From a virus: DNA of 41,013 nt. A program made the translations under genes and the position numbers. Positions within the stretch are counted from its first letter, which is position 1, and each line of letters begins with the position of its first letter. A model generated the notes under the pieces. It worked only from the letters and a program-made list of their open reading frames with translations. It did no database searches and was not told where the DNA came from. The stretch is from IMG/VR virus record IMGVR_UViG_3300028803_000008, positions 1 to 41,013 of that record, one strand, 5' to 3'. This document shows, piece by piece, positions 12,245-23,241 of the stretch.

Positions 12245-12312
12245 AGAACCTGGAGGGACTCGAACCCTCGCAAGCGGCTTTGCAGGCCGCTTCAACGCCT
12301 AGTCGCAGGTTC
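12245..12312 (-). tRNA. tRNA-Cys (GCA)
   Basis: GAACCTG/CAGGTTC, anticodon loop CTGCAAA in stem GCGGC/GCCGC, T-arm GAGGG-TTCGAGT-CCCTC, discriminator U. The D-arm is compressed (CGAC-TAGGC-GTTG directly after the acceptor), so only 68 nt long. Confidence 0.85.
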
Positions 12313-13482: not shown

Positions 13483-13509
13483 TCACGCCTCCCAATGTAG
13501 ATTGTTCAC
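13483..13509 (-). CDS. 8-codon leader ORF starting at a tRNA end
   Basis: GTG AAC ... TGA (product VNNLHWEA) begins one C after the discriminator of tRNA-Ser(GCT) and ends directly before the GTG of the next gene. The Shine-Dalgarno of that gene lies inside it. May be a leader peptide or chance. Confidence 0.3.
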   Translation of the reverse strand: MNNLHWEA

Positions 13510-13510
13510 G

Positions 13511-13595
13511 CGGAAGAGAAAGGGATCGAACCTTCGTGCGGTTACCCGCAGCCACGGCTTAGCAAGCCGCCCCATTCCCACTCTGGCACTCTTCC
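13511..13595 (-). tRNA. tRNA-Ser (GCT)
   Basis: GGAAGAG/CTCTTCC, anticodon loop TTGCTAA, long variable arm (GGCTGCGGGTAACCGC), T-arm GAAGG-TTCGATC-CCTTT, discriminator G. Class II as expected for serine. Position 74 is C, with no full CCA. Confidence 0.92.
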
Positions 13596-13601
13596 ACACC
13601 G

Positions 13602-13883
13602 TCAGCTCGTGGCTGAGAAGTATCTTTCCCGGCACGGTCCGCAAGACCAGCTGCTGCGGCATCTACAAGCCCCGCACCCCGCGCTGGTCCACACCTCGAT
13701 GCAATCGGGGCAGTCGTCGTCGAAAATTTCGGTATACAAGATGACATCGGAGCTGGCGTCATAAACACCGCACAGGCTCAGCCGTGGGCGGCATCCACAT
13801 ACCAGATGGCATTGTTCGTCGCCGTCTAGCAGCTCATCAAGAGAAGTCGTCGGCAGACTATGGTCCAACGTGCCATTTGCCAC
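13602..13883 (-). CDS. Cys-rich zinc-binding-type protein
   Basis: 93 aa, GTG start overlapping the GGQ-protein gene by 26 bases. CHLVCGC...CGVYD...DDDCPDC...GCGACRCRSSWSCGPC gives several CxxC/CxC pairs, so it probably binds zinc. Ends six bases before tRNA-Ser(GCT). No family name. Confidence 0.68.
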   Translation of the reverse strand: MANGTLDHSLPTTSLDELLDGDEQCHLVCGCRPRLSLCGVYDASSDVILYTEIFDDDCPDCIEVWTSAGCGACRCRSSWSCGPCRERYFSATS

Positions 13884-14217
13884 CTTCGAACACCTCCATC
13901 TTCAACGCAGCCGGGTTCTCCACCTCGCGTGCGGCCCATGCAGCCGAGCGCGCCTCAATCTGCTTGTACTCATGCGACTGGCGCGCCACCCAGGCCGAAA
14001 AAAGCTTGGATTCAGCCATGCGCCGGAACGCCAGCTTCTTATTCTGCAACTGCGAACGCTCATCTGTGGCCTGCCCTCTCGCGCCCGAGGCTCGGTGGGT
14101 GACACGCACACCAGTGTCGCGTTTGTTCACGTTCTGGCCCCCGTTGCCCCCGCACCGGAACGTGTCCACATCACAGTCGGCCAGTGTCACCGAAAACAAC
14201 AGCTCACGCTGCGCCAT
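13858..14217 (-). CDS. RF-1 domain (GGQ) peptidyl-tRNA hydrolase, ArfB-like
   Basis: 119 aa. FRCGGNGGQNVNKRDTGVRVTH carries the universal GGQ of class-I release factors, followed by RSQLQNKKLAFRRM as in RF domain 3. There is no codon-recognition domain (no PxT/SPF region), and the C-terminus is a basic helical tail, as in ArfB/ICT1-type ribosome-rescue hydrolases. Expected role: releasing nascent peptides from stalled ribosomes. ATG overlaps the stop of a 7-codon upstream ORF (TGATG). It sits in the tRNA island, where mRNA ends at tRNA processing sites could strand ribosomes. Confidence 0.85.
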   Translation of the reverse strand: MAQRELLFSVTLADCDVDTFRCGGNGGQNVNKRDTGVRVTHRASGARGQATDERSQLQNKKLAFRRMAESKLFSAWVARQSHEYKQIEARSAAWAAREVENPAALKMEVFEGGKWHVGP

Positions 14218-14240
14218 CAGCAGCCCCCGTCCTCACCCAT
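14217..14240 (-). promoter_or_regulatory. 7-codon upstream ORF ending UGA over the GGQ gene start
   Basis: ATGGGTGAGGACGGGGGC-TGC-TGA sits 9 bases behind the best local Shine-Dalgarno (AGGAGGT). Its UGA overlaps the ATG of the release-factor-like gene (TGATG), so that gene may be reached by termination-reinitiation. Confidence 0.35.
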
Positions 14241-14253
14241 TATCGTGCACCTC

Positions 14254-14604
14254 CTACTCCACTGTTTCGGCGATACGCGCAGACCACTCCCCGAAGAAGC
14301 AGATTTCATGATATTCGTTGCTGTTGCGCAGCTTCTGCTGATCTTTGGCCGACGCCAGGTTCATGAACCGTTCGTAAATGTCGCAGCACACCAGCTCGGC
14401 GCGGATCTTCGCCGCGACACGTGCTCGAACGGAGCGATCCCTGCCACCCAGCCAGTAGTGGATGGTGGGCTGGGACACGCCGAGGGCGTCTGCCGCCTCA
14501 CGCTGCGTCTTGCCTTCGCTGACCATCTTCGCCGCTTTGAGGATCTTTTCGCGGCGTTGCGCCTCGGTGTGCCAGTTGGCGGTGCCATTGTTGCGGTGGG
14601 CCAC
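14254..14604 (-). CDS. helix-turn-helix protein
   Basis: 116 aa; GTG start with GGAAGGAGCACCT. The HTH is EKILKAAKMVSEGKTQREAADALGVSQPTIHYWLGG (about residues 19-53), of the resolvase/terminase-small-subunit type. The C-terminal half is helical with a Cys pair (VCCDIYERF). It could regulate the tRNA region or act as a small terminase, but the terminase large gene is 14 kb away on the other strand. Confidence 0.78.
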   Translation of the reverse strand: MAHRNNGTANWHTEAQRREKILKAAKMVSEGKTQREAADALGVSQPTIHYWLGGRDRSVRARVAAKIRAELVCCDIYERFMNLASAKDQQKLRNSNEYHEICFFGEWSARIAETVE

Positions 14605-14622
14605 AGGTGCTCCTTCCCGAAG

Positions 14623-14697
14623 GGTGTGTGACGGGGTTCGAACCCGCGATTGACTAGCACCACAAGCTAGCGCCTAATGCCTTCCGGCTTCACACAC
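14623..14697 (-). tRNA. tRNA-His (GTG)
   Basis: GTGTGTG/CACACAC, anticodon loop TTGTGGT in CTAGC/GCTAG, T-arm GCGGG-TTCGAAC-CCCGT. Discriminator C as in histidine tRNAs, but the encoded -1 base is T rather than G. Confidence 0.9.
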
Positions 14698-14699
14698 AG

Positions 14700-14772
14700 C
14701 TGCCAGCCCAGGATTCGAACCTGGATTTTCCGCTTTGCGAGCAGACGGTTTCCCACGTTGAACTAGCTGGCA
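14700..14772 (-). tRNA. tRNA, anticodon uncertain (GCA by position, C33)
   Basis: Good acceptor TGCCAGC/GCTGGCA, T-arm CCAGG-TTCGAAT-CCTGG and anticodon stem TCTGC/GCGGA. The 7-nt loop is TCGCAAA, putting GCA at 34-36 with C instead of U at 33. Identity therefore unclear (Cys by triplet). Two bases separate it from tRNA-His. The stop of the upstream ORF is its U8-A9-G10. Confidence 0.7.
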
Positions 14773-14951
14773 TTGGCTCCTGCCGGTGGCGGCCCAGGAG
14801 CATATTCGATGAAGGTACCGCCCTCGTGGACCAACCCGATCCGGGCTCCGTCGAATCGGAACCCTAGCTGGTCGAACGTTTTCGGTAACGTCAGGTTCAT
14901 CTGCGAATCGGGGGGCACGTATATGGTGACCCACATCCATTCATCGTCCAC
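14763..14951 (-). CDS. hypothetical protein bounded by two tRNAs
   Basis: 62 aa. GTG start one C after the discriminator of tRNA-Ser(CGA); stop TAG equals U8-A9-G10 of the next tRNA (14763-14765), so the gene fills the tRNA-tRNA gap exactly. Product is beta-rich (WVTIYVPPDSQMNLTLPKTFDQLGFRFDG...VHEGGTFIEYAPGPPPAG). No Shine-Dalgarno; leaderless translation after tRNA processing is the simplest reading. Internal ATGs at 14936 and 14900 are alternatives. Confidence 0.62.
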   Translation of the reverse strand: MDDEWMWVTIYVPPDSQMNLTLPKTFDQLGFRFDGARIGLVHEGGTFIEYAPGPPPAGANAS

Positions 14952-14952
14952 G

Positions 14953-15039
14953 CAGAGGATAGAAGAATCGAACTCCCACCGGGTTTGAGCCGATGGCACG
15001 GTTTTCGAAACCGCTTGCCCGCCATGGGCGCTATCCTCC
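14953..15039 (-). tRNA. tRNA-Ser (CGA)
   Basis: GGAGGAT/ATCCTCT (G1-U72), anticodon loop TTCGAAA in GCGGT/ACCGT, long variable arm, T-arm GGGAG-TTCGATT-CTTCT, discriminator G, then C-GTG of the next ORF. Confidence 0.9.
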
Positions 15040-15046
15040 GTGTTGC

Positions 15047-15208
15047 TTATCCGAGACGCCCGTCACGGATCTTGGTTCCTTTCTCGATCATGCGGCCGAT
15101 GCTGCGCCACCGCCGATCAATCTCCCGAGTATAAGCATCATCGCCATGTTTGTTCAAGAACCACCGCGTCAACTCTTCATCAGACATCGGCTTCCAACCC
15201 TGCTCCAT
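15047..15208 (-). CDS. 53-aa hypothetical protein
   Basis: ATG with GGTAGGTG upstream; ends TAA 8 bases before tRNA-Ser(CGA). Charged, helical: SDEELTRWFLNKHGDDAYTREIDRRWRSIGRMIEKG. Unlike several neighbours it has its own ribosome site. No family recognised. Confidence 0.68.
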   Translation of the reverse strand: MEQGWKPMSDEELTRWFLNKHGDDAYTREIDRRWRSIGRMIEKGTKIRDGRLG

Positions 15209-15232
15209 GTACACCTACCAGTTTTCGTGAAG

Positions 15233-15304
15233 CTCGCCGCCCAAGATTCGAACTCAGTACTGCACGTCCAGAGCGTGCCGTGTTGCCGATTACACCAACA
15301 GCGA
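15233..15304 (-). tRNA. tRNA-Gln (CTG)
   Basis: TCGCTGT/GCGGCGA, D-arm GTG-TAATCGGCAA-CAC, anticodon loop CTCTGGA in GCACG/CGTGC, T-arm CTGAG-TTCGAAT-CTTGG, discriminator G. Confidence 0.9.
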
Positions 15305-15323
15305 AAGTGTCACATTTCCAACG

Positions 15324-15396
15324 CTCCTGCGGCTGGTGTCGAACCAGCTACCCCTCGGGTAACAACCGAGTGCTCTAGCCGTTGAGCTACGCAGGA
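15324..15396 (-). tRNA. tRNA-Asn (GTT)
   Basis: TCCTGCG/CGCAGGA, anticodon loop TTGTTAC in CTCGG/CCGAG, T-arm GCTGG-TTCGACA-CCAGC, discriminator G, C74. Confidence 0.93.
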
Positions 15397-15401
15397 ATGG
15401 T

Positions 15402-15435
15402 GGCGGCTGCCGCGGTGAGCGCCGCAGCAGCCGCC
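15402..15435 (-). repeat. inter-tRNA hairpin
   Basis: Perfect 9-bp stem GGCGGCTGC/GCAGCCGCC with a 16-nt loop, filling the space between tRNA-Trp and tRNA-Asn. Confidence 0.6.
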
Positions 15436-15458
15436 TGGTGGCCGTCTCAAGGACACCG

Positions 15459-15530
15459 CCCCGGTGACAGGACTCGAACCTGCGCGGACTCCCTTTGGAG
15501 AGGAGCGCTCTGCCGCTGAGCTACACCGGA
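15459..15530 (-). tRNA. tRNA-Trp (CCA)
   Basis: TCCGGTG/CACCGGG, anticodon loop CTCCAAA in CTCCT/GGGAG, T-arm GCAGG-TTCGAGT-CCTGT, discriminator G. Its U8-A9-G10 is the stop codon of the upstream gene. Confidence 0.93.
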
Positions 15531-15844
15531 TCGTTCAGTGACACGTCGAAGTAGCGGCGGTCGTGTCCCCGCACATACAGCATATCCCTTGTCGCCCAAC
15601 GAGTGTAGCTGTATCTGGTTTGGACAAGGAACTCTTTGCCGCGGATCAGCATGATGTGGCCGATCTCGCGAAACGTGGCACACCACATCTCGTGCCGGCG
15701 AAAGTCGTGCACCCACTGATGCCTGACCACCGCCACTTCCATGCCCAGGGTGATCCTGGGCAGCCTCAGGGCGTCACTACGAGGCTTACGATGTTCCCGG
15801 CTCGGATATGTTTGGCGCGTAATGCTTTTCACACTGATAGTCAT
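15521..15844 (-). CDS. hypothetical protein ending in tRNA-Trp
   Basis: 107 aa. The stop TAG is U8-A9-G10 of tRNA-Trp. ITLGMEVAVVRHQWVHDFRRHEMWCATFREIGHIMLIRGKEFLVQTRYSYTRWATRDMLYVRG looks like a small beta-barrel-type domain. ATG at 15844 has GGGGGTGG upstream; a GTG at 15877 would add 11 residues. Family not recognised. Confidence 0.65.
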   Translation of the reverse strand: MTISVKSITRQTYPSREHRKPRSDALRLPRITLGMEVAVVRHQWVHDFRRHEMWCATFREIGHIMLIRGKEFLVQTRYSYTRWATRDMLYVRGHDRRYFDVSLNDPV

Positions 15845-15913
15845 ACTCGATCCACCCCCAACGCCAACGCCAGCCACAAAACCGGCACCACGGCTGCACC
15901 CTGCGGAACCAGC

Positions 15914-16204
15914 TCACTTCAACAGCTCCTCAGCGCTCATCTTGCGCCCCACATGCCAGCCCTTACACCAAAAGCAAGGGTAAGGCTCTACCTCATGACG
16001 GGCTTTGCCCGAACGGTTCAACGATGCTGCCGCTTTGGCCGCACTCTCTTCGGTGCCATGGTTCACTTTCGTGCCGCATGTTGCCAGCCGTCCGCACGCC
16101 TCCCCTGCGGCCAGGTGAAGCTGGACCATCTTTCTCTTCCACTTCAGCTCCCGTCCCGGTGGCTGCTTACGGATCGTCGTGATGCTTATGGCACCGGTAG
16201 TCAT
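15914..16204 (-). CDS. small zinc-motif protein
   Basis: 96 aa. Basic N-terminal half; the C-terminal half has YPCFWCKGWHVGRK (C-x2-C...H), typical of small phage zinc-ribbon proteins. Start overlaps the upstream ORF by 38 bases; AGGGCGG precedes the ATG. Confidence 0.68.
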   Translation of the reverse strand: MTTGAISITTIRKQPPGRELKWKRKMVQLHLAAGEACGRLATCGTKVNHGTEESAAKAAASLNRSGKARHEVEPYPCFWCKGWHVGRKMSAEELLK

Positions 16205-16301
16205 AGGTCGCCGCCCTGCGCTTCGCACAAGCCCTGCAGCAGCAAGCATTCAGCCGCTGCCACCACCACGCCTGAGACCCAGGCTTCAATTTGTTCTTCA
16301 C
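16167..16301 (-). CDS. 44-aa Cys/His protein starting at a tRNA end
   Basis: GTG one C after the discriminator of tRNA-Met (16303). Product contains WWWQRLNACCCRACAKRR and YRCHKHHDD, a likely zinc-binding knot. No Shine-Dalgarno can exist outside the tRNA, so it is either leaderless after tRNA 3' processing or translated from the uncut transcript. Confidence 0.6.
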   Translation of the reverse strand: MKNKLKPGSQAWWWQRLNACCCRACAKRRAATYDYRCHKHHDDP

Positions 16302-16302
16302 G

Positions 16303-16376
16303 TGTGCCCGGCGGGACTTGAACCCGCGACCGGCCGATTATGAGTCGGCAGCTCTGACCAGCTGAGCTACAGGCAC
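16303..16376 (-). tRNA. tRNA-Met (CAT), elongator type
   Basis: GTGCCTG/CGGGCAC fully paired, anticodon loop CTCATAA in GCCGA/TCGGC, T-arm GCGGG-TTCAAGT-CCCGC, discriminator A, then C-GTG. A CAT anticodon could also be the lysidine-modified Ile2 tRNA; sequence alone does not decide. Confidence 0.88.
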
Positions 16377-16496
16377 CTTGTCGCGCATCCGCTCATGCTT
16401 CGTCTTGCGCCTGCGATGCGCCTTAGTCCTGGTACAGCACCCGTAGCGGCAGGTGTTGCGTCGCTCGGCTCGCAGGCGTGAACCTAGCATCTTCAT
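16338..16496 (-). CDS. 52-aa basic Cys protein between tRNAs
   Basis: ATG one C after the discriminator of the CAA tRNA (16498). Product is Arg/Lys-rich with RRNTCRYGCCTRTKAHRRRKTKHERMRDK; the frame runs into tRNA-Met and stops at TAA in its anticodon loop. The C-terminal 13 residues are encoded by the tRNA and may be absent if the RNA is cut first. Small RR-x-C-x2-GCC proteins occur in other actinophages, as far as I recall. Confidence 0.55.
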   Translation of the reverse strand: MKMLGSRLRAERRNTCRYGCCTRTKAHRRRKTKHERMRDKVPVAQLVRAADS

Positions 16497-16497
16497 G

Positions 16498-16571
16498 TAC
16501 CCCCAGCCGGATTCGAACCGGCAACCTCCGACTTTTGAAGACGGCGTGTCTACCAATTGCACCATGGAGGC
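16498..16571 (-). tRNA. tRNA-Leu-like (CAA), short variable loop
   Basis: GCCTCCA/TGGGGGT (G1-U72), D-arm GTG/CAC, anticodon loop TTCAAAA in CCGTC/GTCGG (U30-U40 mismatch), 5-nt variable loop AGGTT, T-arm GCCGG-TTCGAAT-CCGGC, discriminator A. The triplet reads UUG, but bacterial tRNA-Leu normally has a long variable arm. Confidence 0.78.
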
Positions 16572-16961
16572 TTATCGTTGCTCCAACTGCCATTTCCTAC
16601 TGCACTGCTTGCCACAAAATGGGCCAGCCTTACCTTGCTTCCTGTTGTGGCGTACCCTCCTGGCTGGCTTTGACACTTCCACGCCACAGATGGGACACGT
16701 GAACACATGCATCTCCGGAGGCGGCATCGTGCGCCTGTTCTCCGAGCTGGGTATTGCTCTTAGGTTAGAGATGTCGTCGTTCTGTGGGTTGCCGTCGATA
16801 TGATCCGCATCTTCGTCGGGGCGCAGCTCTCTTCCTAGATGCAGTCCCAGTATGTGTCGGGCGTAGGATCTTGTCTTCTTGCTACCATCGTCGTAGTGAA
16901 TGATCACGAAGCGACGTGGAGGCTGGCAGGAATCGGTCCAGTAGGGTCCATAAACCTTCAT
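16572..16961 (-). CDS. HNH endonuclease
   Basis: 129 aa. LRPDEDADHIDGNPQNDDISNLRAI is the HNH core (D-H-x-D/N-x-N...N-L), preceded by a small beta domain and followed by a treble-clef-like CPICG...FCGKQCS. Typical free-standing phage HNH homing-type enzyme. No Shine-Dalgarno; TAAACT lies 6 bases before ATG, so a leaderless start is possible. Stop TAA abuts G1 of the CAA tRNA. Confidence 0.88.
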   Translation of the reverse strand: MKVYGPYWTDSCQPPRRFVIIHYDDGSKKTRSYARHILGLHLGRELRPDEDADHIDGNPQNDDISNLRAIPSSENRRTMPPPEMHVFTCPICGVEVSKPARRVRHNRKQGKAGPFCGKQCSRKWQLEQR

Positions 16962-16999
16962 GTACTTAGTTTACACAGTAGTGCCTCTGCCAAGTTTGG

Positions 17000-17070
17000 T
17001 ACCCAGGGAGGGATTCGAACCCCCATCTTCTGATCCTAAGTCAGACGCCCTGCCCTTAGACGACCCAGGC
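17000..17070 (-). tRNA. tRNA-Leu-like (TAG), short variable loop
   Basis: GCCTGGG/CCTGGGT (G1-U72), anticodon loop CTTAGGA in TCTGA/TCAGA, 5-nt variable loop AGATG, T-arm GGGGG-TTCGAAT-CCCTC, discriminator A. Uniquely among the minus-strand tRNAs it is followed by CCA (16997-16999). Confidence 0.82.
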
Positions 17071-17162
17071 ATTAGCGGGGATCCCAAGCTGTAGACAAGA
17101 GATCCCCTGTTCCGCGATGACCGCATCAGTCAACAGCTGCAAGCGCCACCGGGGAAGCTTTA

Positions 17163-17423
17163 CTACCGCATCAAAATCTGAATCATTTCCATCTTGTTCA
17201 ACCGCCGCAGACGCGCCCTAGCCATCCACGCACACGTGGCGATGATAGCCAGCTCCAGATGAATCCGCTTGAACCGGCGCAGATCCGTGACCAGCTTCTC
17301 CTCCGAAAGCAGACCACGCTTCCAGGTGTCCGTCAGGACGAGGGTGGCCACTGCGTTAGCGGCGATCCCGTCGCACATGCCACCGATGATGCGCTGCCAC
17401 GCCTGCAGCAGATCCTGGTCCAC
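17163..17423 (-). CDS. hypothetical helical protein downstream of vWA gene
   Basis: 86 aa, GTG start two bases after the vWA stop. All-helical composition with a hydrophobic middle and basic C-terminus (MARARLRRLNKMEMIQILMR). Same transcription unit as the vWA protein, so a functional partner by context only. Confidence 0.7.
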   Translation of the reverse strand: MDQDLLQAWQRIIGGMCDGIAANAVATLVLTDTWKRGLLSEEKLVTDLRRFKRIHLELAIIATCAWMARARLRRLNKMEMIQILMR

Positions 17424-17424
17424 G

Positions 17425-18456
17425 TTACTCGATCACCAGCAGATCAAAGTTTGGGATCAAGTTACGGTTCGTCGAAGTCGACTGCACAAACACGTCATAC
17501 TCGTTGTTGATACCCGGCTTGATCGACACCTCGTGATCCGGCAGACCCAACAACGTCCGGACCGCAGGGCCGCCGAACACCTTGCCGGAGATCTTGTGCC
17601 GCACCACCACGTTCTTCTGCGGCCCCACCTTTTCCCGCTTGACCAACGGGAAGTAGTACTTGCCCTGCCGGAACGTGCGGTTGTGATGCTTGGTGATGAA
17701 CGTGGTGATGTCCATCGCCGCTTTCACCGGCAGGATCTCGATGCCGGAAACGATCTCCTTCAGTGCAGCGACTGTCTTGTGGTTCACCACGGCCGGCGAC
17801 ATGTCGAACAGGCCGGTGGTGCCTTTCAGGCCGCTGGCACGGGCTGTCATGTAGTTGGCCGTCGAGTCGCGGATGACACGGCCAGCCTCACGTACACCCG
17901 CCTCCGATGAGGCATCCCACACAGCCACGTTGCCAGGTGCGAACCCGAACCGGGTGGCTTTGAACTTGGCTGCCTGGTTCGGGACGAACGCGGCGACGGT
18001 CCAGTTCTCCCCGAGCCCTTTGAGCCGTGCCGCGAGGATGCCTGCGTTGTTGAGGCTGACGTTCTCCTCACCATCAGTCATGATATAGATCAGGAACGAG
18101 TGATTGCCGTACAACGTCGCCGTCTTGTCCAGGTCATCACACGTCGCCAACGCCGCGTCGATCAACGCCGTGTTGCCCTCAGCCTTGTAGCGGCTGGCCA
18201 CCGAATCCAAACGCAGCACATCCTTGTCGAAGATGATGTTGCGGATGTTGTTCGTGTCAGCGAACGTGTACACGCTGATGCGGGTTTCCTGGTTCAGCTG
18301 CGTCGATAGTTCCGCCAGGTCCTTGATCTGCTGGTCGGTGACGCGGACCACTTCCTGGGCCAGATGCTGCATCGACGACGACGCGTCGATGACCACGGCG
18401 ACATGGTTGATGGGTTCCTGCTGTGACGCGTCGATGACGCTCACGTTCTTTGGCAT
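17425..18456 (-). CDS. von Willebrand factor A (vWA) domain protein
   Basis: 343 aa. The vWA domain occupies about residues 15-215: VAVVIDASSSMQ is the MIDAS D-x-S-x-S, with a conserved T in EGNTALIDA and YIMTDGEEN as the third metal-site segment. The C-terminal 120 residues (HHNRTFRQGKYYFPLVKREKVGPQ...GKVFGGPAVRTLLG) are unassigned. vWA proteins act as Mg-dependent adhesion or assembly scaffolds and often accompany Ro60/TROVE in RNA-repair loci. Shine-Dalgarno AGAGGTG; own PafBC-type promoter and an upstream terminator isolate it from the tRNA operon. Confidence 0.86.
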   Translation of the reverse strand: MPKNVSVIDASQQEPINHVAVVIDASSSMQHLAQEVVRVTDQQIKDLAELSTQLNQETRISVYTFADTNNIRNIIFDKDVLRLDSVASRYKAEGNTALIDAALATCDDLDKTATLYGNHSFLIYIMTDGEENVSLNNAGILAARLKGLGENWTVAAFVPNQAAKFKATRFGFAPGNVAVWDASSEAGVREAGRVIRDSTANYMTARASGLKGTTGLFDMSPAVVNHKTVAALKEIVSGIEILPVKAAMDITTFITKHHNRTFRQGKYYFPLVKREKVGPQKNVVVRHKISGKVFGGPAVRTLLGLPDHEVSIKPGINNEYDVFVQSTSTNRNLIPNFDLLVIE

Positions 18457-18492
18457 TGGTACACCTCTTCGCTACGGGTTTCAGAGATCCCC

Positions 18493-18515
18493 AACGTAGC
18501 GCGGGGGTGTGACAA
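18493..18515 (-). promoter_or_regulatory. PafBC (RecA-NDp)-type damage promoter
   Basis: Minus strand TTGTCACAC-N8-TACGTT, same spacing and near-same sequence (TTGTCA-ACCCCCG...TA-CGTTGG) as the element at 8767-8789. It lies 36 bases before the vWA ATG. Confidence 0.6.
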
Positions 18516-18566
18516 AAAGTTGGGGCAAGGCTACTCGCCGCCCAAGCAAAGTCGCTGCCTTGCCCC
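18513..18566 (-). terminator. intrinsic terminator between tRNA-Gly and vWA gene
   Basis: 10-bp stem GGGGCAAGGC/GCCTTGCCCC (18522-18566), 25-nt loop, then AACTTTTTG on the minus strand. Ends the upstream tRNA transcript just before the vWA promoter. Confidence 0.75.
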
Positions 18567-18569
18567 TAG

Positions 18570-18640
18570 AACATCGGGCGGGAATCGAACCCGCGGCGCC
18601 TACGTGGAAGGAAGGCGTGTTGCCCCTACACCACCGATGC
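18570..18640 (-). tRNA. tRNA-Gly (TCC)
   Basis: GCATCGG/CCGATGT, anticodon loop CTTCCAC in CCTTC/GTAGG (U30-U40 mismatch), T-arm GCGGG-TTCGATT-CCCGC, discriminator U as usual for glycine. Confidence 0.85.
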
Positions 18641-18651
18641 CAGAAAAAAGG

Positions 18652-18825
18652 TTAACGACGAAACTCGCCGTCAATGATCGCCTTCACGAAATCGTCCCAC
18701 TCCGCACCCGATAGTTTCAGCATGTCATCAGGCTCAAACGTGGAACGCAGATAGACATGGTCACCGTTGAATGCGACCTGGACGCAGCCATTCGTCTCGC
18801 AAAAGCTGCTGACCTTCCAGTTCAT
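18652..18825 (-). CDS. DUF397-like protein
   Basis: 57 aa: W-K-V-S-S-F-C-E...GCVQVAFNGDHVYLRST...LSGAEWDDFVKAIIDGEF. This is the DUF397 pattern (W..SS...GxCVxVA...V.VRDS...W..F...G.F) of actinobacterial small proteins usually paired with XRE regulators. ATG overlaps the stop of a paralogue (ATGA). Regulatory role inferred from family. Confidence 0.8.
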   Translation of the reverse strand: MNWKVSSFCETNGCVQVAFNGDHVYLRSTFEPDDMLKLSGAEWDDFVKAIIDGEFRR

Positions 18826-19043
18826 ACCCGGAACTCCCCCGCTCGAACGCCCGCCTCAAAGGCCACCATCTCCTGCGGCGTGAACGACACCACCGCCACG
18901 CCGTCAAGCATGAAATCCATGCCTCCGTCGCTGCGGCGAACCGGTGTGGCACCTGTGTTGCCGGCACCCCGGTAGCCGACATCTACTGCCAGGCAGCCGT
19001 TGGACTCGCACTTGGATGAAATCTTCCAGTTTCCAGTTTTCAC
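18822..19043 (-). CDS. DUF397-like protein, starts at a tRNA end
   Basis: 73 aa: NWKISSKCESNGCLAVDVGYRG...VVSFTPQEMVAFEAGVRAGEF, a paralogue of the next gene. GTG start one C after the discriminator of tRNA-Gly(GCC), with no room for a Shine-Dalgarno outside the tRNA. Confidence 0.75.
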   Translation of the reverse strand: MKTGNWKISSKCESNGCLAVDVGYRGAGNTGATPVRRSDGGMDFMLDGVAVVSFTPQEMVAFEAGVRAGEFRV

Positions 19044-19044
19044 G

Positions 19045-19115
19045 AGCGTCACGCCGGGTTCGAACCGACGACGCCACCTTGGCAAGGTGGGGTGTTACCA
19101 CTACACCAGTGACGC
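19045..19115 (-). tRNA. tRNA-Gly (GCC)
   Basis: GCGTCAC/GTGACGC, anticodon loop TTGCCAA in CCACC/GGTGG, T-arm GTCGG-TTCGAAC-CCGGC, discriminator U, then C-GTG of a DUF397 gene. Confidence 0.93.
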
Positions 19116-19205
19116 GTGAGAGGCAGCTACCTGTTCGGTGAAAGGGTATCAGGACGCCCCTGTCCGCGGCTCTCCATACACGGCTCCATGTTCACTGCCC
19201 CTACG

Positions 19206-19277
19206 CGGCCACGACGGGACTCGAACCCGCATCCTCCACCCTGACAAGGTGGCGCTCAGCCTTTGAGCTACGTAACC
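19206..19277 (-). tRNA. tRNA-Asp (GTC)
   Basis: GGTTACG/CGTGGCC, anticodon loop TTGTCAG in CCACC/GGTGG, T-arm GCGGG-TTCGAGT-CCCGT, discriminator G. A 22-codon ORF (VNMEPCMESRG...) could follow it but is unsupported. Confidence 0.9.
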
Positions 19278-19449
19278 TTGAACTCCCGATACCTCTAGAG
19301 CTGAGGCTACCGTAAGCACCGCCAGGTTGGAGCTGGTGATGGTGTCGGCTCACATACTGCACCTCGGGAGCACAGTGCAGGGCATCCTCACGAGCTACCC
19401 CTAGGTCGCGAGCCGTTGTGTGGGGACTCGCTGCGAGGATCCAACGCCG

Positions 19450-19523
19450 CGCCGCTAGGAAGATTCGAACTCCCGAAAGCCTGCTTAGAAGGCAGGTGCC
19501 TTGATCCCCTCGGCCATAGCGGC
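19450..19523 (-). tRNA. tRNA-Arg (TCT)
   Basis: GCCGCTA/TAGCGGC, anticodon loop CTTCTAA in CCTGC/GCAGG, T-arm GGGAG-TTCGAAT-CTTCC, discriminator G. The 172-base gap to tRNA-Asp has several small hairpins (for example CTGCAC/GTGCAG) and no convincing ORF. Confidence 0.9.
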
Positions 19524-19591
19524 TAACGCACTTCTATAATGCTTCAACTGTCTAGAGGTTTTACGTCTGTGGCAATTGCAGCAACGGACAT

Positions 19592-19765
19592 CTAGGCCAC
19601 GGCGGGATGAAACAACTCGATATGCCCCACCCCGAAATGCTCAGCTTCACGTTGAGCACCCCACGGCCCAGGCCGGTCACATGCCTTGCAGTAAAACCTC
19701 CACCGCGGCACCACCCTCTGCCGGAAACCGTAGACGATGACACCACGCGTCCTCTGTATTTCCAC
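19592..19765 (-). CDS. 57-aa zinc-finger-like protein starting at a tRNA end
   Basis: GTG one C after the discriminator of tRNA-Ile. RWRFYCKACDRPGPWGAQREAEHFGVGHIELFHP has C-x2-C and H...H spaced like a C2H2 knuckle, common in small actinophage proteins. No Shine-Dalgarno outside the tRNA. Confidence 0.68.
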   Translation of the reverse strand: MEIQRTRGVIVYGFRQRVVPRWRFYCKACDRPGPWGAQREAEHFGVGHIELFHPAVA

Positions 19766-19766
19766 G

Positions 19767-19840
19767 TACCCGTCCCAGGGGTTGAACCTGGTACCCCCTC
19801 GTTATCAGCGAGGTGCTCTGACCGGTGAGCTAGAACGGGC
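19767..19840 (-). tRNA. tRNA-Ile (GAT)
   Basis: GCCCGTT/GACGGGT, anticodon loop CTGATAA in CCTCG/CGAGG, T-arm CCAGG-TTCAACC-CCTGG, discriminator A, then C-GTG. Confidence 0.92.
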
Positions 19841-19914
19841 TTTGAAAACCTCGGGTCTAGGTTCGGCTTCTATGCCCAACTCGCACTGGGAGCTACCCAG
19901 CGCCGCCAATTCCA

Positions 19915-19930
19915 CACAGTGGCCACTGTG
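19915..19930. repeat. 16-bp perfect palindrome
   Basis: CACAGTGGCCACTGTG between tRNA-Ile and tRNA-Glu(TTC). Possible protein-binding site; it overlaps a doubtful 16-codon ORF (MPTYSQWPLCG) that has a G-rich ribosome-site-like leader. Confidence 0.4.
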
Positions 19931-19977
19931 AGTATGTTGGCATCAGGTTCCCCCCTCCCCCTTCTCCCGAGGCTCCG

Positions 19978-20052
19978 TAGACCCTGCCGGACTTGAACCG
20001 GCGTTCTCCTGAGTGAAAATCAGGTGAGCTTTTCCAACAGCTCCAAGGGTCC
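19978..20052 (-). tRNA. tRNA-Glu (TTC)
   Basis: GGACCCT/AGGGTCT, anticodon loop TTTTCAC in CCTGA/TCAGG, T-arm GCCGG-TTCAAGT-CCGGC, discriminator A. Confidence 0.92.
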
Positions 20053-20155
20053 TTGACGCCAGGTCGATAGTTTCCCACAGCCACCAGTGATCAGCTCTGG
20101 TGCGGGTATATGCCTAGCGGTTGTACCAGCCTTTCCTAGGTGACCGGCCTTGACG

Positions 20156-20230
20156 TAGGCGTTACCGGGCTTGAACCGGTGTTCTCCTGACTGAGAATCA
20201 GGTGAGCTTTGCCGACAGCTCCAAACGCCC
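20156..20230 (-). tRNA. tRNA-Glu (CTC)
   Basis: GGGCGTT/AACGCCT, anticodon loop TTCTCAG in CCTGA/TCAGG, T-arm ACCGG-TTCAAGC-CCGGT, discriminator A. Its D- and anticodon arms match the TTC isoacceptor closely, suggesting duplication. Confidence 0.9.
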
Positions 20231-20389
20231 CTAGCCACACGTTGCTAGGGACAGCACGTGGCCTGCTGTTCGTAGCATCGTGTTCGGGCACGATGCCCCT
20301 GTTATCCCCCTACAGCGAAAGCTTTTGTGAAGTGCCGGCCACCGACGCCTCGGCCAAAGGGCATCAACGCGGTTAGTCGTGGCCGGCAC
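20231..20389 (-). CDS. 52-aa basic protein bounded by two tRNAs
   Basis: GTG two bases after the discriminator of tRNA-Val; stop TAG directly abuts G1 of tRNA-Glu(CTC). WPRRRWPALHKSFRCRGITGASCPNTMLRTAGHVLSLATC has three Cys. The 5' part can fold into GTGCCGGCCA/TGGCCGGCAC (20332-20389), which would sequester the start codon. Confidence 0.5.
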   Translation of the reverse strand: MPATTNRVDALWPRRRWPALHKSFRCRGITGASCPNTMLRTAGHVLSLATCG

Positions 20390-20391
20390 AG

Positions 20392-20463
20392 TACCCCCTG
20401 AGAGAATCGAACTCCCCACATGCTCCTTGTAAAAGAGCCGTTCTTCCACTGAACTAAAGGGGC
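20392..20463 (-). tRNA. tRNA-Val (TAC)
   Basis: GCCCCTT/AGGGGGT, anticodon loop TTTACAA in GCTCT/GGAGC, T-arm GGGAG-TTCGATT-CTCTC, discriminator A. Confidence 0.92.
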
Positions 20464-20468
20464 GTGGG

Positions 20469-20530
20469 GCAGATGGATGCTACGGGACACTGGGATCGGC
20501 GGAAACCATGGGCGCATGGCATCCATCTGC
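20469..20530 (-). repeat. inter-tRNA hairpin
   Basis: Perfect 12-bp stem GCAGATGGATGC/GCATCCATCTGC with a 38-nt loop, starting one base after the tRNA-Phe discriminator and ending five bases before tRNA-Val. Confidence 0.65.
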
Positions 20531-20531
20531 G

Positions 20532-20603
20532 TGGCAACCACAGGAGTCGAACCTGTTCCCCCGCCTCTTCAGAGCGGTGCTCTACCACTTGAGCTAGGAA
20601 GCC
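20532..20603 (-). tRNA. tRNA-Phe (GAA), imperfect acceptor
   Basis: Anticodon loop CTGAAGA in CCGCT/GGCGG, T-arm ACAGG-TTCGACT-CCTGT, discriminator A. Acceptor GGCTTCC/GGTTGCC has two adjacent U-U mismatches (4:69, 5:68), so function may be reduced. Confidence 0.82.
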
Positions 20604-20607
20604 TGGA

Positions 20608-20638
20608 CCCTGCCTCGGGCTAAAGAAACGGGGCAGGG
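20608..20638 (-). repeat. inter-tRNA hairpin
   Basis: Stem CCCTGCC/GGCAGGG with a 17-nt loop between tRNA-Thr and tRNA-Phe. Confidence 0.5.
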
Positions 20639-20686
20639 GCTTTGTGCAACCAGTGTGCTATGCGAGTACCACAACCGGTCCTTACG

Positions 20687-20761
20687 AGCCACGAGGAGGA
20701 TTCGAACCCCCGGCCAGCCGCTTACAAGGCGGCCGCTCTGACCAGACTGAGCTACCGTGGC
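20687..20761 (-). tRNA. tRNA-Thr (TGT)
   Basis: GCCACGG/TCGTGGC, anticodon loop CTTGTAA in GCCGC/GCGGC, T-arm GGGGG-TTCGAAT-CCTCC, discriminator U. Confidence 0.92.
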
Positions 20762-20771
20762 AAACTAAATT

Positions 20772-20839
20772 GAGGTGGTGGCGGAGCGCCTGCCGAACGA
20801 CCCCTCAGAACATCTGGCGCACTGCGACGCCACCACCTC
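20772..20839 (-). repeat. inter-tRNA hairpin
   Basis: Perfect 12-bp stem GAGGTGGTGGCG/CGCCACCACCTC with a 44-nt loop that contains a further GCGCC/GGCGC pairing; fills the tRNA-Lys to tRNA-Thr spacer. Confidence 0.65.
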
Positions 20840-20842
20840 GCG

Positions 20843-20914
20843 TCCCGCTCAAAGGAATCGAACCTTCTCAATCCAGAGTAAGAGTCTGGAGCCCGGCCAT
20901 CAGGCGCAAGCGGG
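20843..20914 (-). tRNA. tRNA-Lys (CTT)
   Basis: CCCGCTT/GAGCGGG, anticodon loop CTCTTAC in CCAGA/TCTGG, T-arm GAAGG-TTCGATT-CCTTT, discriminator A. Confidence 0.9.
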
Positions 20915-21076
20915 TTGTCTCTTTTTGTGGTACGCCTTATTTCGCATGTAAGCCTGCTTCAGCGGTCCACACAGATCGCATCGGCAGTTCCTTTTGCCAG
21001 TCGCGCCGCAGTCAACACATCTGCCACCAAGAAACTCAACGGCCTTGGTCCGTTGCATTTGATGGCGTGCCGCCAT
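20900..21076 (-). CDS. 58-aa zinc-ribbon protein overlapping tRNA-Lys
   Basis: RTKAVEFLGGRCVDCGATGKRNCRCDLCGPLKQAYMRNKAYHKK has CVDCG plus CRCDLC, a clear four-Cys zinc ribbon of the kind seen at the N-termini of HNH-like phage proteins, here without a nuclease core. Its stop TGA lies in the D-loop of tRNA-Lys(CTT), a 15-base overlap. Confidence 0.68.
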   Translation of the reverse strand: MAARHQMQRTKAVEFLGGRCVDCGATGKRNCRCDLCGPLKQAYMRNKAYHKKRQPACA

Positions 21077-21139
21077 CTAGAGGCGCATGTCCTTCATGGA
21101 CTAAGTCTAGAACGTGCTCTTCCTCTGAGCTACGAAGGC
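21077..21139 (-). pseudogene. tRNA 5'-half remnant (acceptor strand and D-arm)
   Basis: GCCTTCG-TA-GCTC-AGAGGAA-GAGC-A is a perfect acceptor strand plus D-arm, but no anticodon arm or T-arm of tRNA type follows. A TGAAGGA segment 36 bases on could pair with the acceptor. Decayed tRNA is likeliest; a T-armless RNA cannot be excluded. Confidence 0.5.
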
Positions 21140-21143
21140 AAAA

Positions 21144-21668
21144 CTACTGCTGTTCCTTAAGCCGCGCCCGGATCGCACGCTGCGATTCGTTGCGTGTCTC
21201 GCGCCGCCGCAGCACACACGGCTCACACTTGCATCCGGCCACCCCAGTCCGGCCGCCACCGTGATCGTTGGAGGTAACCCGCTTTATCTTGATCGGCTTC
21301 GGTTCCTGGAATTGCCGCAGCGCCTTGTCTGCCAGTAGCGCCTTGAAACCTTTACGTCTGGCATATGTCATCAAGGAGGCCAGCCCCTCCGTCGAGTATC
21401 CCCACAGCTTCGCAATTTGAATCGGCGTCTTGCCGGCCTTAATCAACTTGTTGTAGGCCTCCACGCGCTGTTTCATCTTGGCGGGGGTGGCTGGCTCACG
21501 ACTGATGCCATACTTGTCGAACGTGTTTTCGGCCTCGACAAGATATAGGCACGTTTCGCAAACAGTGTAGGAGCGTTGTCTGCCTTTACGTTTCCTGCAG
21601 ACCTTGCACATGCGGTCTGGCTTGCCCTTCTTGCCAGTCGTCGATCTTCTGTCCGGAATGTTGTCCAC
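21144..21668 (-). CDS. zinc-ribbon/HTH protein starting at a tRNA end
   Basis: 174 aa, the longest ORF that begins one C after a tRNA discriminator (tRNA-Arg CCG). N-terminal zinc ribbon CKVCRKRKG...CETC (about 21-40), a helix-turn-helix-like middle (GKTPIQIAKLWGYSTEGLASLMTYARRKGF) and a C-terminal GVAGCKCEPCVLRRRETRNE like the CRC-x2-C modules of the gene at 21889. A DNA- or RNA-binding protein is likely. Stop lies 5 bases before the tRNA remnant. Confidence 0.78.
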   Translation of the reverse strand: MDNIPDRRSTTGKKGKPDRMCKVCRKRKGRQRSYTVCETCLYLVEAENTFDKYGISREPATPAKMKQRVEAYNKLIKAGKTPIQIAKLWGYSTEGLASLMTYARRKGFKALLADKALRQFQEPKPIKIKRVTSNDHGGGRTGVAGCKCEPCVLRRRETRNESQRAIRARLKEQQ

Positions 21669-21669
21669 G

Positions 21670-21743
21670 TATCCCTGGCAGGATTCGAACCTGCGACATC
21701 CGCCTCCGGAAGACGGCGCTCTGATCCGCTGAGCTACAAGGAC
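21670..21743 (-). tRNA. tRNA-Arg (CCG)
   Basis: GTCCTTG/CAGGGAT, anticodon loop TTCCGGA in CCGTC/GGCGG, T-arm GCAGG-TTCGAAT-CCTGC, discriminator A, then C-GTG of the next gene. Confidence 0.92.
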
Positions 21744-21752
21744 TTGATTCTC

Positions 21753-21820
21753 GCAAGGGATCAGGAACCCGGGTTCCGACGCTATACGAGTTGACTAGGC
21801 TCGCGCAGTAGATCCCTTGC
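21753..21820 (-). repeat. inter-tRNA hairpin
   Basis: Perfect 10-bp stem GCAAGGGATC/GATCCCTTGC with a 48-nt loop between tRNA-Lys(TTT) and tRNA-Arg(CCG). Confidence 0.65.
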
Positions 21821-21826
21821 CAGTTG

Positions 21827-21898
21827 TACCCCCGCCAGGAATCGAACCTGAGACATTCCGATTAAAAGTCGGAAGTTCTGCCACTGAACTACGAGGGC
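21827..21898 (-). tRNA. tRNA-Lys (TTT)
   Basis: GCCCTCG/CGGGGGT, anticodon loop CTTTTAA in TCCGA/TCGGA, T-arm CTCAGG-TTCGATT-CCTGG, discriminator A. Its U8-A9-G10 is the stop of the upstream gene. Confidence 0.92.
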
Positions 21899-22404
21899 GT
21901 GACCTTCTTCTTCGACGGGGTCGCTTTAGCATGCGCATCTTTGCACGGTCGGCACCGGCAGCCCCAGTTTCTGTATGTCCCGTCCTTGCCGTGCGGCGCC
22001 AGCGTCGGGTCGGCCAGCAACCTCGCCACCCTGTCAGCCCGCGACGCCCGCGCCTGTGCACGACCAACTTTGAGACATTCGTCGCAGCGGCAATTCCACC
22101 CGTTGTAGGCCGCCGATGTGCCGTGCTGGATCATGTTCGGGTCGGTTTCCAGTTTGGCCAGGTTGGCTTTCCTTGCGTCCCGCGCCAGCTTCACGTGCGC
22201 CTGTCTGCAGGGCTGGCAGCGACATCCCCAGTTGACGTAGGTGGAATCTTCGCCGTGCGGGGCCAGCGTCGGGTCGGCCAGCAGCCGCTGGGTTCGTCTG
22301 TGGCGCTCCCACCTGACCTCACGCAGCTTCGCGTCGCGGCAAATGTCGCATCGGCATTTGTGAAACTTGTAGCGGGCTATACCGTGGGTGACACCGTCTT
22401 GCAC
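21889..22404 (-). CDS. four-repeat CRC-x2-C zinc protein filling a tRNA-tRNA gap
   Basis: 171 aa. Four repeats of HG-x(4)-Y-x-x-W/H-x-CRC-x2-C (starting near residues 7, 46, 92 and 138): HGIARYKFHKCRCDIC, HGEDSTYVNWGCRCQPC, HGTSAAYNGWNCRCDEC, HGKDGTYRNWGCRCRPC, each a probable zinc knuckle, with basic linkers containing LLADPTLAPHG. GTG start one C after the tRNA-Tyr discriminator; stop TAG is U8-A9-G10 of tRNA-Lys(TTT). Nucleic-acid binding is likely; function unknown. Confidence 0.82.
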   Translation of the reverse strand: MQDGVTHGIARYKFHKCRCDICRDAKLREVRWERHRRTQRLLADPTLAPHGEDSTYVNWGCRCQPCRQAHVKLARDARKANLAKLETDPNMIQHGTSAAYNGWNCRCDECLKVGRAQARASRADRVARLLADPTLAPHGKDGTYRNWGCRCRPCKDAHAKATPSKKKVTPS

Positions 22405-22405
22405 G

Positions 22406-22487
22406 TGGCTGTGACAGGGATCGAACCTGCCATGCAATTATGCGCCTGATTTACAGTCAGGTGCCCCACCGTTGAGGCGTCACAGCC
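22406..22487 (-). tRNA. tRNA-Tyr (GTA)
   Basis: GGCTGTG/CACAGCC, anticodon loop CTGTAAA in CCTGA/TCAGG, long variable arm, T-arm GCAGG-TTCGATC-CCTGT, discriminator A, then C-GTG. Class II as expected. Confidence 0.92.
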
Positions 22488-22560
22488 GAAGCTTTTGGTC
22501 CGGCGGCAGCCAGTCGCCTGGTGTGTGGATGAGCTGCCACCGGATTTTCCTCACCCCCAT
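22480..22560 (-). CDS. possible 26-aa peptide
   Basis: ATG GGG GTG ... TGA; product MGVRKIRWQLIHTPGDWLPPDQ and so on. Stop falls in the tRNA-Tyr acceptor. Protein-like composition but no ribosome site. Confidence 0.35.
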   Translation of the reverse strand: MGVRKIRWQLIHTPGDWLPPDQKLRL

Positions 22561-22569
22561 GGCAAGGAG

Positions 22570-22640
22570 TCCCCCTGACAGGAGTCGAACCTGCATCCAT
22601 CGCTCCGTAGGCGATTGCTCATCCTTTGAGCTACAGGGGA
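22570..22640 (-). tRNA. tRNA-Arg (ACG)
   Basis: TCCCCTG/CAGGGGG, anticodon loop CTACGGA in ATCGC/GCGAT, T-arm GCAGG-TTCGACT-CCTGT, discriminator A. Confidence 0.9.
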
Positions 22641-22726
22641 AAGGTTGGGAGAAGGGCCAGCAGCAGGTATCTCTCCCGCCGCAGCCTGGCCCTCTCTTCA
22701 CGCGATGCGCTTATCCCTGAACACAT
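22631..22726 (-). CDS. possible 31-aa peptide ending in tRNA-Arg
   Basis: ATG at 22726; helical SREERARLRRERYLLLALLPTF; stop TAG is U8-A9-G10 of tRNA-Arg(ACG). The same stretch forms hairpin AGGGCCAG/CTGGCCCT, so RNA structure is the rival explanation. A 12-codon frame begins at the tRNA-Ala end (C-GTG, 22736). Confidence 0.35.
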   Translation of the reverse strand: MCSGISASREERARLRRERYLLLALLPTFPL

Positions 22727-22737
22727 CAGGGTCCACG

Positions 22738-22806
22738 TGGAATACAAGAGGATCGAACTCTTCAGGGCTGGTTTGCAAGACCGGCCTGTGCACCAGCACG
22801 TACCCC
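22738..22806 (-). tRNA. tRNA-Ala (TGC), short D-arm
   Basis: GGGGTAC/GTATTCC, anticodon loop CTTGCAA in CCGGT/ACCAG (one C-A mismatch), T-arm AAGAG-TTCGATC-CTCTT, discriminator A. D-arm reduced to GTGC-TGGT-GCAC directly after the acceptor; 69 nt. Confidence 0.82.
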
Positions 22807-22817
22807 AAGATGGCTGG

Positions 22818-22876
22818 CGGCAGGTGCAGGGAAGTCATCGAACCTTCCATTGGCTGGCTAGCCCGCTTCGCCTGCC
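22818..22876 (-). pseudogene. degenerate tRNA-like sequence
   Basis: GGCAGG/CCTGCC ends, a T-arm-like GGAAG-GTTCGATGA-CTTCC with an enlarged loop, and GGCTAGCC in the middle, but no proper anticodon or D-arm. Decayed tRNA, or a small tRNA-like RNA. Confidence 0.45.
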
Positions 22877-22891
22877 ACCGACGCGTGAACG

Positions 22892-22990
22892 TTAGCTCAT
22901 GCGGCTGGTAGTGCTACCGCCGGAAGGCGGCGGAGGGGGAGGCGGGGGGCAGCCGGTTCCGCTGTTACCGCCACGGGTTACACGCTTCAT
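22892..22990 (-). CDS. 32-aa proline-run peptide
   Basis: Excellent Shine-Dalgarno (GGAGGAACAAC before ATG). MKRVTRGGNSGTGC then eight prolines then SGGSTTSRMS. The 3' part of the gene also folds as CCGCC-TTCC-GGCGG. Short poly-proline peptides stall ribosomes without EF-P, so a sensing role is possible. Confidence 0.62.
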   Translation of the reverse strand: MKRVTRGGNSGTGCPPPPPPPPSGGSTTSRMS

Positions 22991-23033
22991 GTTGTTCCTC
23001 CGTTTATGGGGGATAAGGACGTCCAGTGTTGCG

Positions 23034-23108
23034 TCGGGATAGCACGATTCGAACGTGCAATCGCCTGCTCCCAAAGCAGGTGCCTTCACCAAGTTTGGCC
23101 ATATCCCG
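23034..23108 (-). tRNA. tRNA-Pro (TGG)
   Basis: CGGGATA/TATCCCG, anticodon loop TTTGGGA in CCTGC/GCAGG, T-arm GCACG-TTCGAAT-CGTGC, discriminator A. Confidence 0.93.
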
Positions 23109-23154
23109 TTGGTGCCGGGGACAGACTACCCTGCCTGCCCCCGGCGGTAAGATT

Positions 23155-23226
23155 CTTTGACAGCAGGATTCGAACCTGCAATCTTCGGTTCCTGCGACCG
23201 ACGCCCTGCCATTGGGCTATGTCAAT
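23155..23226 (-). tRNA. tRNA-Leu-like (CAG), degenerate
   Basis: D-arm GCCC/GGGC, anticodon stem TCGGT/ACCGA with loop CGCAGGA (CAG at 34-36 but G33), T-arm GCAGG-TTCGAAT-CCTGC. Acceptor ATTGACA/TGTCAAA has A1-A72 unpaired; no C74. Short variable loop. Possibly non-functional. Confidence 0.65.
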
Positions 23227-23241
23227 GCTGCACGGCACATT

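Follow-up and report, generated by a model that had tools for sequence, protein, structure and literature searches.

The tRNA array of a virus represented by a 41-kb record (IMG/VR IMGVR_UViG_3300028803_000008; the whole stretch of 41,013 nucleotides is called the window here) holds protein genes whose start codons appear fitted to the first base after the discriminator N73 and C74 of the preceding tRNA. Of the 29 tRNAs that ARAGORN annotates in the window, 28 are minus-strand and occupy 13510 to 23227 with small genes interspersed among them, and ATG or GTG (together RTG) directly follows C74 in nine of these 28 (eight GTG, one ATG). The excess of such junctions is real and lies far beyond chance. 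We consider it likely that the junction genes, here and in several other phages with tRNA arrays, are expressed as leaderless mRNAs released by a cut of the tRNA 3′ end after C74. Five elements of this reading come from sequence: the exact junction, the N-termini that it marks, selection on the encoded proteins, the pattern of Shine-Dalgarno (SD) sequences and the use of RTG-only starts.

Open reading frames at the tRNA junctions of the window

The 3′ ends called by ARAGORN take in C74, and Infernal places N73 one base earlier (at 21670 for tRNA-Arg, for example), which gives the order N73, C74, RTG. Nearly all window tRNAs encode C74 without the full CCA. An additional tRNA at 12245-12312 (minus strand; Rfam, 37.8 bits) was missed by ARAGORN. 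A reading of the sequence alone had proposed seven substantial open reading frames (ORFs) starting at tRNA junctions, and all seven are present, at 14951, 16301, 16496, 19043, 19765, 21668 and 22404. They are listed here with their tRNAs, on the minus strand (-); lengths are in amino acids (aa).

14952..15039 (-), tRNA-Ser(CGA), N73 at 14953 and C74 at 14952
14763..14951 (-), 62-aa ORF, GTG directly after C74; its stop is a UAG at nucleotides 8-10 of tRNA-Cys
16302..16376 (-), tRNA-Met(CAU), called by ARAGORN and Infernal
16167..16301 (-), 44-aa ORF rich in Cys, opening with GTG right after C74; no upstream in-frame alternative start
16497..16571 (-), tRNA-Leu(CAA), called by ARAGORN and Infernal
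16338..16496 (-), 52-aa ORF, ATG directly after C74; a weak case that terminates within tRNA-Met
19044..19115 (-), tRNA-Gly(GCC), called by ARAGORN and Infernal
18822..19043 (-), 73-aa gene with a weak Pfam match to DUF397, opening with GTG right after C74
19766..19840 (-), tRNA-Ile(GAU), called by ARAGORN and Infernal
19592..19765 (-), 57-aa ORF, GTG directly after C74; the same junction in relative G002 has a same-size ORF, a possible weak homologue
21669..21743 (-), tRNA-Arg(CCG), N73 at 21670 and C74 at 21669
21144..21668 (-), 174-aa gene rich in Cys, opening with GTG right after C74; a homologue lies behind tRNA-Arg(CCG) in 4/4 relatives
22405..22487 (-), tRNA-Tyr(GUA), called by ARAGORN and Infernal
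21889..22404 (-), 171-aa CxC..CxxC repeat protein (PHROG 14857), GTG directly after C74; its stop is a UAG at nucleotides 8-10 of tRNA-Lys(UUU)
14254..14604 (-), for contrast, a helix-turn-helix gene with a strong SD (GGGAAGGAG), starting 18 nt beyond N73 of tRNA-His
13483..13509 (-), 8-codon ORF behind tRNA-Ser(GCU), which includes the SD (GGGAGG) of a 135-aa gene at 13482
22698..22736 (-), 12-codon ORF behind tRNA-Ala, on a short hairpin

The weakest of the seven is the ORF at 16496, which overlaps tRNA-Met by 39 nt and for which no homologue was found. The 73-aa gene is the first of two adjacent DUF397-type genes, a host-like actinomycete family, lying between tRNA-Gly genes at 18652-19043 (minus strand). 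Both short junction ORFs of the sequence-only reading also exist, at 13509 (tRNA-Ser(GCU), 8 aa) and 22736 (tRNA-Ala, 12 aa). The TGA of the former immediately precedes the GTG of the 135-aa gene; this ORF may encode a leader peptide and was not counted as a gene; the latter is probably no gene, as it sits on a short hairpin found in the window and in G002. That hairpin lies directly 3′ of tRNA-Ala (22698-22736, minus strand, and L029:12003-12030), and its fold appears to be retained between the two viruses while the stem sequence differs. A start two bases beyond tRNA-Val (20389) did not hold up: its GTG falls in an 11-bp inverted repeat, the ORF is not conserved (15 and 8 aa in relatives), and it is probably no gene. 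The repeat, GTGCCGGCCAC...GTGGCCGGCAC, occupies 20330-20390 (minus strand) immediately 3′ of tRNA-Val.

The window virus probably infects actinobacteria. Distant matches of its terminase are mostly to phages of Gordonia, Vibrio, Microbacterium and Arthrobacter, and the window carries DUF397 genes. A megablast search of the window region against phage records returned no near DNA match. Searches with the 174-aa and a 343-aa protein found no relatives among viral_contigs, nor did the 174-aa protein find any among phages. Relatives were reached through the terminase and an 82-aa gene; the terminase led to contigs with syntenic arrays, G002 (L002/L029), G003 (L003), G007 (L009) and G009 (L012). 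The window and these four relatives form the window clade, which has 97 tRNAs and was sampled by terminase, not by junction.

Enrichment at a single offset

Counting from the first base after C74 as +1, RTG occurs at +1 in 9/28 window tRNAs, where offsets 5-100 average 1.11 (Poisson P ~3e-6), and seven ORFs of at least 40 aa open there where 0.47 are expected (P ~7e-7). For the window clade, the corresponding figures are 18/97 against 3.47 expected (P ~3e-8) and, for ORFs of at least 40 aa, 14/97 against 1.48 expected (P ~7e-10), P values that are approximate because the arrays are related. The tRNAs that bear junction genes vary among these relatives, and the start codon switches between ATG and GTG.

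The same peak was seen in isolated Streptomyces BE phages (13/61 tRNAs). Five other lineages, with GC contents of 37-61% and partly sampled through the C-GTG pattern, show it too (26/126 tRNAs). Counting ORFs of at least 40 aa, +1 holds 14/97 in the window clade, 13/61 in BE phages and 26/126 in the five lineages, and other offsets from -20 to +20 hold 0-5. One low-GC virus, L351 (G015, GC 37%), has long +1 ORFs behind 4/8 tRNAs, including a 328-aa gene. Junction genes are absent from T5 (CCA encoded in 22/23 tRNAs), S-PM2, Myrna, GMA2 and L030/G010, and the peak is weak in A3Wally and Phendrix; KVP40, phiCbK, Beagle and DSL-LC01 yielded too few tRNAs in the stretches sampled for a judgement. 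In a scan of all viruses with a CGTC control pattern, ORFs of at least 50 aa numbered 53/122 versus 22/80 (P = 0.026), a modest contrast that is probably due to most virus lineages being without the trait.

Alternatively, the ORFs could be spurious and C-GTG could be a neutral feature of tRNA 3′ trailers, or else serve as a processing signal. C74 is followed by G in 59/97 window-clade tRNAs, and some junction starts open very short ORFs or ORFs that lie on hairpins. Against this, the excess is limited to RTG codons that open ORFs. Host tRNA ends speak to the same point: among 123 sampled from 12 actinobacterial genomes, 118 (96%) encode C74 and 22 the full CCA, and C-RTG follows in 4 of the 118 with C74 (3.4%), which is background. 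Background levels in hosts, together with phages that do not have the trait, make the junction a property of certain tRNA-array phages and not of tRNA trailers generally. With the codon-position bias, homology and SD-bearing homologues described below, which mark real genes, the neutral account is largely refuted for the longer ORFs and is the least probable of those weighed here.

Junction codons as N-termini

The 82-aa gene lies behind tRNA-Leu(CAA) in G002, where it starts with GTG, and behind tRNA-Leu(UAG) in G009, where it starts with ATG, in both cases at the junction. The two proteins share 67% aa identity, and their genes differ at 22/18/45 first, second and third codon positions, which indicates selection acting on the protein. 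Members of this family occur in about 20 other phage contigs, mostly with no nearby tRNA, and start at the identical residue (MAIDxKYGRV). Seven junction ORFs have no other upstream in-frame start (Met, Ile and Arg in the window; Ala, Ile and Asp in G002; Arg in G003). An 81-aa ORF behind tRNA-Asp(GUC) of G002 reads across the next tRNA and is probably spurious.

Between the BE phages Bmoc and NootNoot, third-position differences are in clear excess in 3/5 orthologous junction genes (14/15/38, 8/8/25 and 26/21/42); the Gln(UUG) gene is weaker (20/16/27), and the Leu(GAG) gene is too diverged for the codon-position test. The window-clade Arg(CCG) and Ile pairs are likewise too diverged for it, the Arg(CCG) homology itself being clear. 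Conservation in related phages had been put forward as a check, and start codons are indeed retained at junctions there, with swaps between ATG and GTG and with purifying selection on the proteins in most testable pairs. These comparisons show that the junction codons are the true N-termini.

Shine-Dalgarno sequences away from the junction

In 11 of 12 BE phages sampled (Bmoc, NootNoot and ten others), the gene behind tRNA-Leu(CAA) starts at +1 with ATG or GTG and has no SD. The exception is Wofford, in which an insertion, ctttgaaggaggaat, separates N73 from the start and the gene begins at +15 behind a perfect SD. The tRNA-Arg(CCG) gene behaves similarly, with a +1 start in both the window (GTG) and G003 (ATG) and a +18 start behind GGGAAGGGAGG, a strong SD, in G002. 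Of 21 homologues of the 82-aa gene away from tRNAs, 17 carry an SD with a pairing energy of -7 kcal/mol or lower. SD energies at junction starts equal those at tRNA ends with no start (P = 0.39); no SD is selected within tRNA 3′ ends. Displaced starts were judged by orthologue comparison, since the mechanical choice of ORFs for SD energies took in spurious ORFs. The two orthologue sets thus use either a junction start with no SD or a displaced start with a strong one. The sequence-only reading, in which no junction start has room for an SD outside the tRNA, is supported both by the tRNA ends and by the strong SDs of displaced and tRNA-free homologues.

These data bear on the possibility that the starts are real but that translation begins on unprocessed tRNA-mRNA, helped by S1, by an SD-like G-rich acceptor strand or by a lack of structure at the 5′ end of the coding region, the tight packing reflecting no more than a compact genome. 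Tight gene packing is common in phages, and some acceptor ends (GGGGG) pair weakly with the anti-SD. Compaction predicts many offsets, however, whereas enrichment occurs at +1 only; SD strength is no different from that at gene-less tRNA ends, and a strong SD appears once the start moves off the junction. A folded acceptor stem set against the start codon should also hinder loading of the 30S subunit. We regard this explanation as unlikely.

A predicted cut after C74

The start codons of the +1 ORFs of at least 40 aa are 22 ATG, 31 GTG, one TTG and no CTG. Leaderless translation in mycobacteria has been established experimentally to work with RTG and no other codon (PMC4633059). The ATG/GTG usage at the junctions agrees with this rule, in line with the link to actinobacterial leaderless translation drawn in the sequence-only reading.

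Such messages could in principle come from promoters within the tRNA genes that set the transcription start on the RTG, as actinobacteria commonly make primary leaderless transcripts (PMC4633059, PMC3848588). The RTG of such primary transcripts has a TANNNT -10 box some 7-12 nt ahead of it. A TANNNT box at -14 to -5 was found in 0/58 junction ORFs, which makes a transcription start at the RTG unlikely, and promoters would not account for starts being tied to the ends of different tRNAs in different lineages. We hold this origin to be highly improbable.

Processing of the tRNA would offer a 5′ end at the right place. In Propionibacterium acnes (PMC3848588) and Streptomyces coelicolor (PMC4681348), the tRNA 3′ end is reported to be cut between C74 and C75; applied to N73-C-RUG, this cut would put RUG exactly at the 5′ terminus. 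We propose that transcription of the array would yield long RNAs, that a host tRNA 3′ endonuclease would cut after C74 (N73-C|RUG), that the host nucleotidyltransferase would add the rest of the CCA to the tRNA, and that the downstream fragment, beginning with AUG or GUG, would be translated as a leaderless mRNA without an SD. The earlier interpretation is supported at the level of sequence, with one refinement: the 5′ end is predicted at N73+2, after C74, and not at N73+1.

Several observations count against this reading. The published C74|C75 cuts were observed on CCA-encoding tRNAs (PMC3848588, PMC4681348), and for CCA-less tRNAs the published cut site is given just as 'within a few nucleotides'; a cut at N73|C74, if that is where it falls, would give a one-base leader. 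The Arg(CCG) gene of G007 and G009 begins at +4 with no clear SD, an unexplained intermediate, and G-rich acceptor ends yield chance SD-like stretches at some junctions (-8.0 for the 82-aa gene of G002). Several of the other lineages were found via C-GTG itself, which inflates their rates; the terminase-found window clade is unaffected. Absence from the mycobacteriophage Myrna and the Gordonia phage GMA2 means that junction genes are no rule for actinophage arrays. Finally, in 8/58 junction ORFs the stop is a UAG spelled by U8-A9-G10 of the tRNA that follows, a feature that the sequence-only reading did not mention.

Stop codons in the next tRNA

The UAG stops within tRNAs include those of the window 171-aa gene and a 160-aa gene of G003, and lie at:

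14763-14765 and 21889-21891 (-), window, plus L003, L341, L347, L348 and L349

U8-A9-G10 frequently spells UAG, so that an ORF running into a tRNA in this frame will terminate there. Other junction ORFs stop a few bases from the next tRNA, and many well before it. Where the stop lies within the downstream tRNA, excision of that tRNA by the RNase P cut would remove it and give a non-stop mRNA. The array itself encodes a protein of ribosome-rescue or release-factor type:

13858..14217 (-), RF-1/GGQ-domain protein within the tRNA array (PF00472, E=4.8e-18)

Relatives of this RF-1-domain GGQ protein occur on L035, L039, L040 and L258, the L035 copy having an in-frame stop; L035 and L039 are contigs of the junction-bearing viruses G012 and G014. 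The BE phage Bmoc has a transfer-messenger RNA (tmRNA). A tie between junction genes and non-stop rescue is a guess.

The same features could suit a switch, in which the gene would be silent while the tRNA is attached and on after 3′ processing, and downstream excision would remove the stop so that tRNA and protein output compete. The stops in the next tRNA, the rescue factor in the array and the Bmoc tmRNA fit such a scheme, but most junction genes carry their own stop ahead of the next tRNA, and we consider the switch very unlikely.

A Ro60/TROVE protein with a vWA domain (24873-26504, minus strand) adjoins the tRNA array and has homologues in G002, G003 and G004. A general Rfam scan reported no Y RNA; no search aimed at Y RNA was made.

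Relation to known systems

The proposed cleavage resembles mitochondrial tRNA punctuation in that tRNAs abut protein genes, excision would set mRNA 5′ ends and there would be no leader or almost none. Unlike in mitochondria, the setting is a phage array in which only some genes take part and SD-led genes also occur, and the encoded C74 would stay with the tRNA. The 3′ side also departs from the mitochondrial pattern: mRNA 3′ ends set by the downstream tRNA would need a stop before or at the cut, and eight of the 58 junction ORFs stop inside the next tRNA, whereas mitochondrial stops are completed by polyadenylation. The mitochondrial likeness proposed earlier therefore stands for the direct abutment of protein genes on tRNA genes (9/28 window tRNAs), and not for the 3′ side, where the stops of several genes belong to the downstream tRNA.

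Like the actinobacterial leaderless mRNAs of Mycobacterium, Streptomyces and P. acnes, the junction genes lack an SD, hardly ever use TTG and have ATG or GTG at what is presumably the 5′ end. In the known leaderless mRNAs transcription starts at the RTG, whereas the phage 5′ ends, which have no -10 box, would come from tRNA processing. The predicted phage cut is at the same bond as the C74|C75 cleavage of P. acnes and S. coelicolor (PMC3848588, PMC4681348), which was reported as tRNA maturation only and not tied to the making of mRNA. Streptomyces BE phages (Stanwilliamsviridae; Bmoc, NootNoot) have the same junctions as the window, and SEA-PHAGES coding sequences start at the tRNA end + 1. 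The announcements consulted for these phages discuss tRNA number only, and the arrangement is visible in public annotations without comment. The view that it is undescribed for a phage agrees with our literature search, which covered few subscription papers and found no description, with the BE annotations already showing the starts. The components are known; what would be new is the combination of tRNA punctuation and leaderless translation in phages.

For phages of actinobacteria more broadly, we think it fairly probable that the host cut after C74 serves as a general device for making leaderless mRNAs. This would be a bacterial version of tRNA punctuation: each tRNA array would double as a series of start sites, and the maturation of its tRNAs would be coupled to protein synthesis from it. 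The hypothesis can be tested in cultured Streptomyces phages. If it is true, tRNA punctuation would exist outside organelles as a systematic strategy, and leaderless mRNAs would arise by processing at a defined site that can be read from the genome. The poorly understood actinobacterial C74|C75 cleavage would gain a functional readout, and annotation would gain a rule for small, often overlooked genes, such as the orthologous ORF left unannotated in Paradiddles. Phage tRNA arrays would then have a second role, the making of start sites.

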